Below are positions 6,981-48,089 of a stretch of 64,000 bases of DNA, in pieces. The DNA is taken from positions 124,001 through 188,000 of the forward strand of contig JAGXGA010000029.1 of assembly GCA_024636975.1 (NCBI GenBank). Reading direction: 5' to 3'. A program made the position numbers and the translations under genes. This stretch comes from Mariniphaga sp. (GTDB taxonomy: Bacteria; Bacteroidota; Bacteroidia; Bacteroidales; Prolixibacteraceae). Under the pieces are notes generated by a model, which was given only the letters and a program-made list of their open reading frames with translations, had not been told where the DNA came from and made no database searches. How positions within the stretch are numbered: the stretch's first letter is position 1; each line of letters begins with the position of its first letter.

Positions 6981-7086
6981 CCATGCTAAAGTCGGATCAA
7001 ACTCACATTAAACTCACATTAAACTCGCATTAAACTCACAATAAATTCACTCAATCGCGAAGTCGATGCGAAATTATTGTGTGTTT
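6981..7086. repeat. Intergenic element A: phased 11-bp direct repeats with an inverted arm
   Basis: From 6999 to 7053 five units repeat with an exact 11-bp period: AAACTCACATT twice, then AAACTCGCATT, AAACTCACAAT and AAATTCACTCA. A weaker unit, AAAGTCGGATC, precedes them (6988-6998), and CTGGACCATG lies just before (6977-6986). The unit at 7032-7044 (AAACTCACAATAA) is answered by TTATTGTGTGTTT at 7074-7086, an inverted repeat with one mismatch, with TCGC/GCGA inside it. The rest of the 6872-7313 gap holds only AT-rich sequence and the small palindrome described below. The same repeat pattern occurs at two other intergenic sites in this window. Confidence 0.8.
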
Positions 7087-34670: not shown

Positions 34671-35150
34671 ATGAACTTTACTGTCAGTCAAATAGGAACC
34701 ATAAAAGTAAAGGAAGAGAATTATTCCCTTCAACTGCAGCAGGAATACCTCCCCGGGCTTAAACACATTGAAGGTTTCAGCCACCTGCGGATCATCTGGT
34801 GGGCACATCTGAGCGATGAGCCGGAAACCAGAATCCGAACCTTTACCAAAAACTTGTTCAGGCATGCGCCCGACGAGGTTGGGGTTTTTGCTTCCCGCAC
34901 CACAGAACGTCCCAACCCGGTAATGATAAGTACAGTTGAAGTTGAAGATATTGATTTCGATAATGGTGTAATCAAAATTGCCTTTATCGATGCTGAAGAC
35001 GATACTCCTGTTTTGGATATTAAACCTTATTTCCCTGTAGAACGCATAAGGGAATGCAAAACACCCAAGTGTTATAGCCATTGGCCGCAATGGGCCGAAG
35101 ATGCCCACCGCTTCGACTGGAAAAGTGAAATCAGTTTTAAATCTTTATAA
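34671..35150 (+). CDS. TsaA-domain protein (TrmO-like tRNA methyltransferase family)
   Basis: A 159-residue single-domain protein of the TsaA/UPF0066 family. IEGFSHLRIIWWAHL, FASRTTERPNPVMISTVEV and DDTPVLDIKPYFP match the motifs of E. coli TrmO, which methylates N6-threonylcarbamoyladenosine at position 37 of some tRNAs. It lacks TrmO's C-terminal extension, so enzymatic equivalence is not certain. It stands alone, followed by the 35178-35310 palindromic element. tsaE, from the pathway making its presumed substrate base, is elsewhere in the window. Confidence 0.78.
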   Translation: MNFTVSQIGTIKVKEENYSLQLQQEYLPGLKHIEGFSHLRIIWWAHLSDEPETRIRTFTKNLFRHAPDEVGVFASRTTERPNPVMISTVEVEDIDFDNGVIKIAFIDAEDDTPVLDIKPYFPVERIRECKTPKCYSHWPQWAEDAHRFDWKSEISFKSL

Positions 35151-35177
35151 ATTTCCGATCTCAAAATACTTTTAAAC

Positions 35178-35310
35178 TATACCTGGTCCATATCAAACTC
35201 AGTGTTAACTCATTCTTAATTCAGTTTAAATTCAATTAAAATCGAACCAACACTGAATTAATATTGAATTTATATTGAGTTTACATTGAGTTTAGTCCGT
35301 CCCAGGTATA
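35178..35310. repeat. Intergenic element B: 133-bp imperfect palindrome of phased 11-bp repeats with 9-bp inverted ends
   Basis: TATACCTGG (35178-35186) and CCAGGTATA (35302-35310) are perfect inverted ends. The left arm from 35195 reads in steps of 11: AAACTCAGTGT, TAACTCATTCT, TAATTCAGTTT, AAATTCAATTA, AAATCGAACCA. The right arm, read on the minus strand, gives TAAACTCAATG, TAAACTCAATA, TAAATTCAATA, TTAATTCAGTG. Both arms share the TCA-core unit of element A, and CTGG(A/T)CCAT precedes the repeats in both A and the left arm. It is non-coding and sits downstream of the TsaA-domain gene. The remaining intergenic DNA to 35786 contains a lone -7 box (35462) and a 35-codon open frame I cannot support as a gene. 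Confidence 0.85.
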
Positions 35311-35461
35311 TCTCATGTAAGGACATTAGAGGGGCATTTTATTTTTCCTGAATCGGTCATTTCCTGCTTTTTCAATATCAACTATTGTGTTTTAAATAAT
35401 TTCCTGGCACTGTGTATTTATTTCTTTTCATACATACTCAATACGTTTCATAGGATTATGT

Positions 35462-35786: not shown

Positions 35787-36134
35787 ATGAATTTGAGAAC
35801 AATAGGCTTAATTGCTTTACTTATCTTTCTGCTTTTTATTGCAGCAAAAGTGTTGGCAGACGTTAAAGCAGAGCGAATAAAAATGAAGGTTAGCGGTACT
35901 TGTATAGAACAGGTAGAAGAAGTAGCCGCTACAATTGATGGAGTAATTCAATCCAATTGGGATGAAGAAACTGGAGAACTGGAAATCGTGTACGAACAGG
36001 ATAAAACAAATTTACGTTTTATAGAGCAAACCATTTCGGAAGCTGGATTTGATACCCCTAATTATAAAGCGTCAGAAGAAGATGCAAAAAAAGTTTCCAA
36101 TGAATGCGAGAAATTGGAAACATCCGGAGAGTAA
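35787..36134 (+). CDS. Membrane-anchored HMA-like domain protein with a single cysteine
   Basis: A 115-residue protein with a membrane helix (5-24) and a ferredoxin-like domain (about 30-100): IKMKVSGTCIEQVEEVAATI then GELEIVYEQDKTNLRFIEQTISEAGF. This is the pattern of heavy-metal-associated domains (metal loop, helix, strand, helix), but the usual CxxC loop is reduced to Cys39. Cysteine 109-111 region (NEC) near the tail adds another. Metal binding of the normal two-cysteine type is therefore doubtful. It stands alone, followed by a perfect hairpin at 36158-36188. Confidence 0.7.
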   Translation: MNLRTIGLIALLIFLLFIAAKVLADVKAERIKMKVSGTCIEQVEEVAATIDGVIQSNWDEETGELEIVYEQDKTNLRFIEQTISEAGFDTPNYKASEEDAKKVSNECEKLETSGE

Positions 36135-39756: not shown

Positions 39757-39865
39757 AATGTAATTGAATTTATTTTACTATTAAGTCCCCCATAATTTTT
39801 CAACCGAACTTCAAAATGAATAACTTTAATCGCAAATTAATCATTTATTCAATTAAAAGCAGCTG

Positions 39866-39983
39866 CACGATATCGTGAGATTGCTTTTCCGCCAACTGGT
39901 CGGAGCTGCAATGCCGGCTCCTTGGCGAGGTCTGTATGCGGCGCAACAACTATCATGGTAATATAAATAACATTTGCGCCGCA
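39866..39983. other. Stack of perfect inverted repeats in a 337-base gap
   Basis: Three nested or neighbouring palindromes occur in about 118 bases: CACGATATCGTG (39866-39877), CGCCAA (39890-39895) with TTGGCG (39922-39927) enclosing GGAGC/GCTCC (39902-39906, 39917-39921), and TGCGGCGCAA (39937-39946) with TTGCGCCGCA (39974-39983). The segment is more GC-rich than its flanks. A run of A, not T, follows on the plus strand, so it is not a standard terminator. It could be a structured RNA or the ruin of a mobile element. The rest of the gap shows nothing recognisable. Confidence 0.6.
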
Positions 39984-41639: not shown

Positions 41640-41771
41640 AAACGCAATGTTATCTCTACCTAATCTCAACTTAATCACTACTTAATCACCACATCATCAC
41701 CTCCTAATCTCTACCATATCACTGCTTACTCACCACCCATTCACCCCTTGCTCCCCACCAATCCCCCCTAT
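41640..41771. repeat. Intergenic element C: degenerate 11-bp-period repeats upstream of dnaG
   Basis: From 41640 at least eleven consecutive 11-base steps keep a TCA/TCT core in register: AAACGCAATGT, TATCTCTACCT, AATCTCAACTT, AATCACTACTT, AATCACCACAT, CATCACCTCCT, AATCTCTACCA, TATCACTGCTT, ACTCACCACCC, ATTCACCCCTT, GCTCCCCACCA. The units are C-rich towards the right, strongly strand-asymmetric, and show no inverted arm, so C is a decayed or one-armed relative of elements A and B. It fills the gap between the divergent sirtuin and dnaG genes; the rest of that gap (41412-41530) holds nothing recognised. Confidence 0.7.
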
Positions 41772-46632: not shown

Positions 46633-47889
46633 TTAAATACCGAAAGTATTTTTAATGATATCTACATAATCGAGTTTTTCCCATGTAAAAAGCTCCACCT
46701 CTTTCACGGTTGGTTCATTTTCATATGGGGATTCAAATTTCTTGGTAACCGTTGCAGGTATACGCCCCATATGACCGTAGGCAGCTGTTTCAAGATAGAT
46801 CGGGTTGCGGAGTTTGAGCCGTTCTTCTATGGCTGCAGGACGTAAATCAAACAAGTCCTGAATTTTTTCTGCAATCTCACCATCTGAGAAAGACACATTT
46901 TTCCTGTCGTAGGTATTTACATAAACGCCAACAGGCCTCGCAACACCAATGGCATAGGCCAGCTGGACAAGAATTTCATCGGCAACACCTGCAGCAACAA
47001 GATTTTTAGCAATATGCCGTGCAGCATAGGCAGCCGAACGGTCAACTTTTGAAGGGTCTTTACCTGAAAAGGCGCCTCCCCCATGTGCACCCCTGCCACC
47101 ATAGGTATCTACAATAATTTTACGCCCTGTTAAACCTGTATCTCCATGCGGACCACCAATTACAAATTTGCCGGTAGGGTTAACGTGGTAAAAAATATCG
47201 TTGCCAAAAAGCTGCTTCACCCGCTCAGGCAATGTTGCCTTAACACGCGGAATCAGGATGTTTATAACATCTTCCTTTATTTTTGCAAGCATGGGCTCAT
47301 CGGCATCAAACTCATCGTGCTGGGTTGATACTACAATGGTGTGGACTTTCAACGGCAGGTTTTCATCAGAATACTCTATGGTCACCTGCGACTTGGAATC
47401 GGGACGAAGGTAGGCCATTTCCTTCCCTTCACGACGTATTGCTGCCAGCTCTTTAAGGATCAGGTGAGAAAGTTCAAGCGGCAAAGGCATGTAGTTATCG
47501 GTATCTTTGCAGGCATACCCAAACATCATTCCCTGGTCACCGGCACCCTGATCGTAACGGTCAACTTTGTCGACACCACGGTTAATATCAGGGCTTTGCT
47601 CATGAATAGCTACCAGAACACCACATGAATCGCCTTCAAAACGATAGGCCCCTTTGGTATAACCAATTTTATTAATGACCCGGCGGGTTACTTCCTGTAC
47701 ATCAACATATGTTTTGGATTTTACCTCCCCGGCCACTACCACCTGCCCTGTGGTTACCAGGGTTTCAATAGCTACTTTCGAACTGCTGTCGAATGCGAGG
47801 AATTCGTCAAGCAATGCATCGGAAATCTGGTCAGATACTTTATCAGGATGGCCTTCTGATACCGACTCACTTGTAAATAAATAACTCAT
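46633..47889 (-). CDS. metK: S-adenosylmethionine synthetase
   Basis: A 418-residue enzyme making S-adenosylmethionine from methionine and ATP. Signatures include [20 protein letters not shown] (His/Asp site), [12 protein letters not shown] and [18 protein letters not shown]. Full length, with a small family-specific insert in the middle. It is monocistronic: a promoter and SAM-II-like leader sit upstream and a strong terminator follows. Confidence 0.97.
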
Positions 47890-48015: not shown

Positions 48016-48036
48016 AAAAAAAAGCACGATTGCTTT
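48016..48036 (-). terminator. Intrinsic terminator hairpin at the 3' edge of the metK leader aptamer
   Basis: On the minus strand AAAGCA (48036-48031), loop ATCG, TGCTTT (48026-48021), then a run of T (48023-48016). Its 5' strand overlaps the GCTAAA and GCAATC segments that the SAM-II-like pseudoknot also uses. Confidence 0.65.
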
Positions 48037-48083
48037 AGCATTTTTTCCTGTGGTTGCAATCAATCTCAAATCTTTCCACGTAG
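48026..48083 (-). promoter_or_regulatory. SAM-II-like riboswitch in the metK leader
   Basis: Minus-strand segments match the SAM-II layout in order: P1 5' strand GTGG (48079-48076); loop with GATTT (48072-48068), then GATTG and ATTGCAA (48065-48054); P1 3' strand CCAC (48053-48050); an A-rich linker; GCTAAA (48039-48034); and the pseudoknot strand GCAATC (48033-48028), which can pair with GATTGC in the loop. ATTGCAA and GCTAAA are the conserved SAM-contact blocks, and P1 and P2 are complementary with bases unlike the well-known SAM-II RNA. Only 4 bp of P1 are clear. Promoter immediately upstream and metK downstream support the call. Confidence 0.72.
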
Positions 48084-48089
48084 CGGAGG

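Follow-up and report, generated by a model that had tools for sequence, protein, structure and literature searches.

Dispersed 11-bp-phased palindromes in a Mariniphaga genome and a candidate link to DUF6266 proteins

A 133-bp imperfect palindrome at positions 35,178–35,310 of a 64,000-nucleotide stretch of Mariniphaga sp. DNA (assembly GCA_024636975.1, contig JAGXGA010000029.1, positions 124,001–188,000; the whole stretch is called the window below) belongs to a family of at least 63 dispersed copies in the same genome. The copies are intergenic and consist of two inverted arms of 11-bp units, they form an evenly spaced series together with sites of other sequence families, and arrays of the same phasing lie upstream of genes for DUF6266 proteins; both the elements and these genes are absent from three congeners. 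The observations suggest an undescribed DNA-marking system, and the element is a candidate two-fold binding site of DUF6266 that would organise the chromosome, a reading whose chances we regard as about even.

A dispersed family of phased palindromes

The palindrome in the window was confirmed. It starts with TATACCTGG and ends with CCAGGTATA, the perfect 9-bp inversion pointed out in an initial annotation of the window, but most of the family ends differently, its common end being ACCTTCKCCKGA. The imperfect palindrome with an 11-bp period described in the same annotation also stood: the lag-11 identity across the 133 bp is 0.61 (0.29 ± 0.04, maximum 0.43, in 2,000 dinucleotide shuffles) and the identity with its own reverse complement 0.68 (0.30 ± 0.05, maximum 0.48, in 2,000 such shuffles), both values lying beyond all shuffles. 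Three successive AAHTCA-N5 units with up to two mismatches occurred 11 times in the window (shuffle mean 0.34), five times in the element, four times in a further array (array A), and twice elsewhere. The element matched no Rfam family at gathering thresholds, where a match to a known repeat family would have counted against the initial annotation; the only matches in the window were a tRNA and a SAM-II riboswitch.

The genome scan proposed in the initial annotation recovered numerous further copies. Throughout the genome (G000; 5.76 Mb in 67 contigs, denoted by C and a number, with the window on C50), three AAHTCA units at 11-bp spacing matched 158 + 153 times, compared with 23 + 22 times for the reversed pattern, and with the end motif included and one mismatch allowed there were 65 + 62 matches versus none in the control. 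Three candidates (C48:246803, C8:40751, and C13:7216) were excluded from the main family as not being its palindromes. A typical copy is made up of some ten AANTCA units with a period of exactly 11 bp. Its two arms, inverted relative to each other, have five units each and meet at a centre that usually reads TCAATTATAATTGA. Under the counting rule used, 89 of 108 arms contained five units, the others having four (9 arms), six (5), three (2), seven (2), or none (1). Autocorrelation of the arms hardly declines with distance (0.66 at lag 11, 0.65 at lag 22, and 0.63 at lag 33), and AANTCA is near-invariant on one face of the helix over ten turns, whereas the spacer bases vary. The copies are oriented, as an iterative fit reached a log-likelihood of −4504, compared with −4684 ± 28 for 15 sets of randomly paired arms, and the common end lies on the conserved arm, approximately 58–69 bp from the centre. 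Column conservation revealed weaker T/TA preferences at the 11-bp phase up to about ±90 bp from the centre; it decays gradually with an 11-bp rhythm and has no sharp ends.

Within a single copy, the arms share 1395 Watson–Crick cells at 23–55 bp from the centre, compared with 1464 ± 10 for randomly paired arms, whereas selection for an RNA or DNA hairpin would have the opposite effect. Since a copy's own arms are thus less complementary than expected by chance, the element most likely functions as a double-stranded site and not as a hairpin. The free spacer bases could break up a long palindrome that might otherwise be dangerous, which would fit a double-stranded site.

No open reading frame (ORF) of at least 80 amino acids spans any of the 63 copies according to a simple ORF rule. 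The flanking genes are in tandem at 33 copies, convergent at 15, and divergent at 14, one copy not being assignable; these orientations resemble random intergenic placement and hence count against promoters and terminators. The flanks are generally not common to the copies, and BLAST among 1.2-kb neighbourhoods returned 18 pieces in nine pairs that lay outside the elements or exceeded 200 bp, several of them local repeats. A KOPS-like strand-polar signal was considered and rejected, because copy orientation matched the local GC skew in 29 of 63 cases and adjacent copies agreed in 23 of 36, without a clear effect.

Miniature inverted-repeat transposable elements (MITEs) and other derivatives of insertion sequences are short, intergenic, palindromic, and multicopy, and the copies described here have the same traits. 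However, a mobile element of MITE type, as considered in the initial annotation, could not be upheld in this form. The target duplications that it recommended looking for were not found, since direct repeats of 2, 4, 5, 8, or 9 bp at a fixed offset round the 63 copies did not exceed permutations, although a duplication could be masked where copies are old or their ends vary; in addition, the copies fade out gradually, are evenly spaced, and lie at least 18 kb apart within a contig. Neither a parent transposase nor a full-length element was seen in a search that was not exhaustive.

DUF6266 genes and the arrays upstream of them

A generic core, in which an 8-bp centre is flanked on either side by two AANTCA units, was searched for in 84,980 species and found in 26 stretches. 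Twenty-three of these were from Plebeiobacterium, Labilibacter, Saccharicrinis, Marinilabilia, Carboxylicivirga, and a Marinilabiliaceae bacterium (we take the genera other than Labilibacter to be Marinilabiliaceae as well); the remaining three, in Lelliottia, Nitrosopumilus, and Sphingobacterium, were taken as chance matches. Most Marinilabiliaceae copies keep the 11-bp phasing but differ in their spacers and have arms that are hardly complementary outside the core. Copy numbers are low there: four genomes had 6, 7, 8, and 3 matches to the core, against 1, 0, 2, and 0 to the reversed pattern, and 400 kb of Labilibacter sediminis contained the gene-linked site only, apart from one dyad-less match (58803, score 0.32) that was left uncounted. 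At 5 of the 23 loci the element adjoins a DUF6266 gene, confirmed by Pfam in three cases, and it always lies upstream of the start codon. An independent search of 60 relatives for the DUF6266 profile PF19781 found the family in 15 of them, but in none of the three congeners and none of 14 control genomes. The Mariniphaga genome itself has seven matches, one of which is below the cut-off and contains internal stops. The three congeners likewise lack the main-family element, and 460 kb of one of them (G003) contained no array at a score threshold of 0.30.

The association is strongest for the close relatives of a DUF6266 protein encoded on C37, here called type M and defined by similarity to ten proteins, five of which had been found via the element. 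Type-M genes identified by the profile were those on C37, C58, C30, and C48 of the Mariniphaga genome and one in the relative G019. All five have an array scoring at least 0.30 within 500 bp upstream, as do all ten type-M genes when those found via the element are included. In total, 46 DUF6266 gene rows were examined, covering some of the matches from the search of 60 relatives. Among the 40 profile-found rows with usable upstream DNA, 11 were array-positive (two rows sharing one array); three further rows scored 0.25–0.29, and L196 had too little upstream DNA. Canonical-type genes had an array in only 1 of 22 cases, so that the association does not extend to the Pfam family as a whole. No score of 0.30 or above was obtained downstream of the genes examined or in any of 1,794 control windows, which were overlapping 500-bp windows of G003 only, with coding and non-coding DNA mixed, and not upstream stretches. 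Within the Mariniphaga genome the background is 29 such matches per 1.21 Mb, or roughly 1–2% per 500-bp window, compared with four of four type-M genes. Eight of the ten gene-linked type-M arrays were plainly symmetrical (self-complementarity 0.62–0.76), and symmetry was weak in the other two, L234 (0.51) and L225 (0.56).

The array preceding the C37 gene is a 64th main-family copy with its dyad centre 70 bp before the start codon, and its B arm (the laxer one; Table 1) contains a promoter-like box, TAACTTTG. A TAnnTTTG box, a promoter motif of Bacteroidota, lies 30–52 bp before the start in all four type-M genes of this genome, whereas none was found within 330 bp in the six others. The other arrays are of different types: A-type arrays precede the C30 gene and a pseudogene on C45, and TTCG-type arrays precede the C48 and C58 genes. 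As array types differ from gene to gene, each DUF6266 gene seems to have its own code. The statement of the initial annotation that arrays A and C of the window use the same unit as the palindrome has to be modified accordingly. Array A is a relative, but has its own unit, AAACTCRCATY, and a cognate gene, that on C30; array C is different and runs in one direction only.

The conclusion with the most support, and in our judgement a probable one, is that the type-M DUF6266 proteins and the arrays of 11-bp phase belong to each other. The coating or bending of DNA by a protein, proposed in the initial annotation, gains indirect support from the phasing at 11, 22, and 33 bp, the near-invariant motif on one face, and the position of arrays upstream of the genes of a single protein family.

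Several individual loci deserve mention. The broken DUF6266 gene on C45 (C45:125889–126113) still has its A-type array upstream. Canonical DUF6266 proteins with the motif GGxSGKxGNxVGxSWKGI are encoded at L222, L223, and the G013/G019 loci, mostly without arrays, and their role may differ from that of type M. L238 and L239 of G019 encode DUF6266 fused to an XRE-type helix-turn-helix (HTH) domain and are preceded by stretches of 11-bp phasing that score 0.34 and 0.29, and at L201/L241 (G040) one 11-bp-phased dyad is situated between two divergent DUF6266 genes and is common to both.

The C37 protein matched PF19781 with 100.1 bits (cut-off 23.4, E = 1.5e-28), which was its sole Pfam match at E ≤ 0.1, so no transposase or nuclease domain was detected by Pfam; comparison with PHROGs and NCBIfam at E ≤ 1 yielded no family. 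Its structural model (mean pLDDT 92) has three strands, two helices, and a sandwich resembling fibronectin type III (FnIII), and in the ten type-M proteins residues 1–110 have a mean net charge of +10 and the remainder one of −4. No solved relative of the N-terminal domain was present among 94 aligned chains. DUF6266 is named in no paper of the literature searched, a collection outside which most subscription papers lie, and judging by titles and the openings of abstracts this collection held nothing relevant on such repeats or their spacing. A phage or plasmid origin was rejected, as the generic core was found in no viral contig, six peptide patterns from the C37 protein had no match in viral contigs, and the protein itself had none in plasmid and phage records.

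According to the proposed mechanism, a DUF6266 site would comprise approximately 140–180 bp with ten 11-bp units, five per arm. Each helical turn would offer one AANTCA unit for contact with the basic N-terminal domain (three-stranded sheet and long helix), and the FnIII-like C-terminal domain would join neighbouring proteins, so that DNA would become coated or wrapped from both arms. Since a phased array lies upstream of the start of every type-M gene examined, such a gene probably regulates itself, and this autoregulation would act through its own array. The dispersed copies, which lack a regulatory position, might serve as chromosome-organising or anchoring sites. Should DUF6266 bind the dyads, this would assign a role to a protein family whose function has been obscure and would present a new phased mode of DNA recognition for structural solution. 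The domain structure of a Bacteroidota chromosome on the scale of tens of kilobases would then become testable, as defined sites could be deleted or moved.

Spacing of the sites and competing explanations

Main-family copies on the same contig are separated by 36 gaps, the shortest of which is 18.4 kb; 9.2 gaps below 15 kb were expected, and none occurs. A-type copies (about 15 places, none in the control) fall between main-family copies; all nine on contigs that also carry main copies lie at least 25.6 kb from these, although 4.8 of the nine would be expected within 20 kb (P = 1e-4). Prompted by the proposal that large gaps hold other families, 1.21 Mb were scanned for any 11-bp array. TTCG-type dyads were found in large gaps or past the last main copy on C38, C48, C36, C14, and C50, whereas the scan detected no further array in the large gap of C53. 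There were 29 matches at lag 11, compared with 0–8 at lags 8–10 and 12–16 and 16 at lag 7. None of 11 further A- or T-type sites checked was spanned by an ORF of at least 100 amino acids.

The resulting ladder is regular on C50, with sites at 23.2, 58.5, 91.7, 131.0, 159.2, 189.2, 226.6, and 257.7 kb (coefficient of variation (CV) 0.11, P = 1e-5), a statistic that is post hoc because C50 was picked after its regularity had been noticed. The joint test comprised the three fully scanned contigs C50, C36, and C38, which have 22 sites of mixed families and 19 gaps with a mean of 36.2 kb and a CV of 0.34 (null 0.88 ± 0.16, P < 1e-5). The ladder has holes at C38 225–325 kb, C53 20–96 kb, and C14 1–86 kb, and two short gaps on C38 (13.5 and 18.2 kb). 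One weak site, C38:21007 (0.33), was kept, whereas two motif-less matches scoring 0.28 (C14:96320 and C36:256359) and two C-type arrays (C50:165682 and C50:226791) were left out; counting those four would bring the smallest gap down to about 0.2 kb.

Whether the copies are functional or selfish, a process that senses distances of approximately 25–35 kb is needed to account for even spacing among families that differ in sequence. Where scanned, the sites of the paralogues form a single quasi-regular lattice of about one site per 36 kb, for which reason a chromosome-organising role appears most likely for the dispersed copies, though this is less sure than the link between protein and arrays. 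With somewhat less than even probability, paralogous DUF6266 proteins share this lattice of large sites, each with its own 11-bp dyad code and autoregulation, and constitute an organising or polycentric partition system of a new family that is gained and lost between close species. Extrapolation from the three fully scanned contigs, provided that they are representative, gives roughly 150 such sites in the genome. Several known systems invite comparison. In Escherichia coli the 13-bp target of MatP, matS, occurs 23 times in 800 kb (PMC3330122) and is comparable in being dispersed over the chromosome at a mean distance of about 35 kb. In contrast to this short palindrome, the sites found here are phased and ten times longer (140–180 bp), several families share one lattice, and confinement to a single region was not evident; no sequence relation between MatP and DUF6266 was found. 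REP/RAYT, matS/MatP, and parC/ParR resemble the DUF6266 arrays in logic only; in each comparison, testing showed that one or more defining features were missing here.

The chief rival is mobility with target immunity, a serious possibility even if we consider it rather unlikely. DUF6266 or a partner would copy the upstream dyad as a non-autonomous mobile element comparable to repetitive extragenic palindromes (REPs) and their associated RAYT transposases, and bound protein would block insertion nearby, so that saturation would look even. Random parking with an exclusion of 25–28 kb indeed produces mean gaps of 34–38 kb (CV 0.20), and because these means are similar to those observed, spacing alone does not tell whether a lattice was selected for or target immunity was at work. 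REP/REPIN-RAYT systems resemble the present arrays in being lineage-specific and in having a gene beside its cognate palindrome, more than one family in a genome, and numerous intergenic orphans (PMC2817692; on these systems see also PMC3116915 and PMC3733652). Each family described here likewise has a gene-linked copy plus orphans, is patchily distributed, and uses lineage-specific units. Two orphan elements of Labilibacter marinus (L113 and L114) are closely similar over more than 100 bp, as if a site had recently been duplicated in that genome. In an empty-site comparison with 460 kb of G003, 4 of 65 Mariniphaga records matched at 65–90% identity, a level too distant for base-level joins. 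Both flanks of L053 are present in order in G003, with 437 unaligned bp including the element in the Mariniphaga genome versus 165 bp in G003; both flanks of L048 are present but rearranged.

Against mobility stand the lack of target duplications at the fixed offsets tested and of sharp ends, the flanks, which apart from the few short repeat matches were generally not copied along, and the exclusion, which operates between different families. The invariance of AANTCA beside variable spacers furthermore suggests lasting constraint. RAYTs are Y1 (HUH) tyrosine transposases with inverted REPs on both sides of the gene, whereas the C37 protein matches only PF19781 in Pfam and DUF6266 arrays occur upstream only. 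REPs are also described as hairpins of 20–40 bp with a GTAG/CGTC-type tag (a search for this tag was not made here) and differ in this from evenly spaced dyads of 140–180 bp with arms of about 70 bp. If the copies are a selfish element after all, the spacing of sites in this genome would be a striking record of target immunity in nature.

It is improbable that the sites are operators of a regulon with DUF6266 as transcription factor for many genes. Arrays upstream of the DUF6266 genes themselves and the fusion of two DUF6266 proteins of G019 to an HTH_3 domain would agree with such a function, but 15 of the 63 sites lie between convergent genes, flank orientations look random, and a regulon gives no reason for even spacing.

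The iterons of R1 are 11 bp long. A centromere-like partition function following ParR/parC logic, in which DUF6266 would load onto split 11-bp iterons and be moved by a partner motor, was judged marginally less probable still than a regulon. Five plus five 11-bp units precede the protein's own gene, and the C37 dyad overlaps a promoter-like box, reminiscent of split parC with its two iteron clusters upstream of the operon of the binding protein, which is wrapped by the DNA (PMC5016525). Iterons of this kind are direct repeats, however, whereas the arms described here are inverted, and many chromosomal sites contrast with a single plasmid site. ParR is a ribbon-helix-helix protein, a fold that was not apparent in the C37 model as read from its strand order, although match lists cannot exclude it, and the C37 protein had no plasmid match.

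It is very unlikely that a general protein, for instance DNA gyrase, binds or cleaves preferentially at the copies: the congeners, which must have gyrase, lack the sites, and these are linked to DUF6266 genes. The DNA wrapped by gyrase measures about 130 bp and has a G + C motif with a period of 10.75 bp round the cleavage site (PMC6379681), and its strong sites agree with the element in size, two-fold symmetry, and periodic flanks, but differ from its period of 11.0 bp over three turns and its signal of near-invariant hexamers instead of G + C content. An RNA hairpin or transcription terminator, finally, was rejected despite the near-perfect palindrome of the inner 44 bp and mean RNA folding energies of −52.8 kcal/mol for one strand and −56.9 kcal/mol for the other, since beyond these 44 bp the arms avoid complementarity (and are hardly complementary in most Marinilabiliaceae copies), flanking genes show no orientation preference, and Rfam did not recognise the element.

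Features of the window

The element and its surroundings are listed in Table 1; its centre is at 35238/35239.

Table 1. Parts of the palindromic element, neighbouring genes, and further arrays in the window.
Feature	Position	Strand	Description	Basis or remark
A arm	35239..35308	-	Strongly conserved; from outer end to centre on the minus strand, end motif and five 11-bp units	Orientation and column counts, 63 copies
B arm	35169..35238	+	Laxer; phased TCA/TGA mostly kept, 5 spacer bases vary	
Left 9-bp end	35178..35186	+	TATACCTGG; minority end variant within the family	
Right 9-bp end	35302..35310	-	CCAGGTATA on the plus strand	
Probable full footprint	35149..35328	.	Weak T/TA preference at 11-bp phase	Family column conservation; extrapolated to the window copy
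TrmO N-terminal domain gene (PF01980)	34671..35150	+	Ordinary flanking neighbour	
Next downstream ORF	35787..36134	+	115 amino acids, not annotated	
Array A	6988..7050	+	Second family (unit AAACTCRCATY), one plain arm	Ladder rung 28 kb from the main element
Array C	41641..41769	+	One-directional 11-bp array (AATCWCNAC)	Not counted in the ladder

C-type arrays gave 13 + 9 matches in the genome (about a dozen places) and none in the control, and they often occur among other intergenic repeats, as at L170, L172, L175, L176, L178, L179, L184, L185, L190, and L071 (about 1640–1930). No cognate gene was found for them, and their spacing is unlike that of the ladder. The SAM-II riboswitch (Rfam RF01726, 56.5 bits) is located at 48025–48085 on the minus strand, upstream of the minus-strand ORF 46633–47889. 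A 34-bp palindrome at 39855–39888, beginning with AAAAGCAGCTGCACGATATCGTG, may be another dispersed repeat, as a similar string is found in the flank of element L034.
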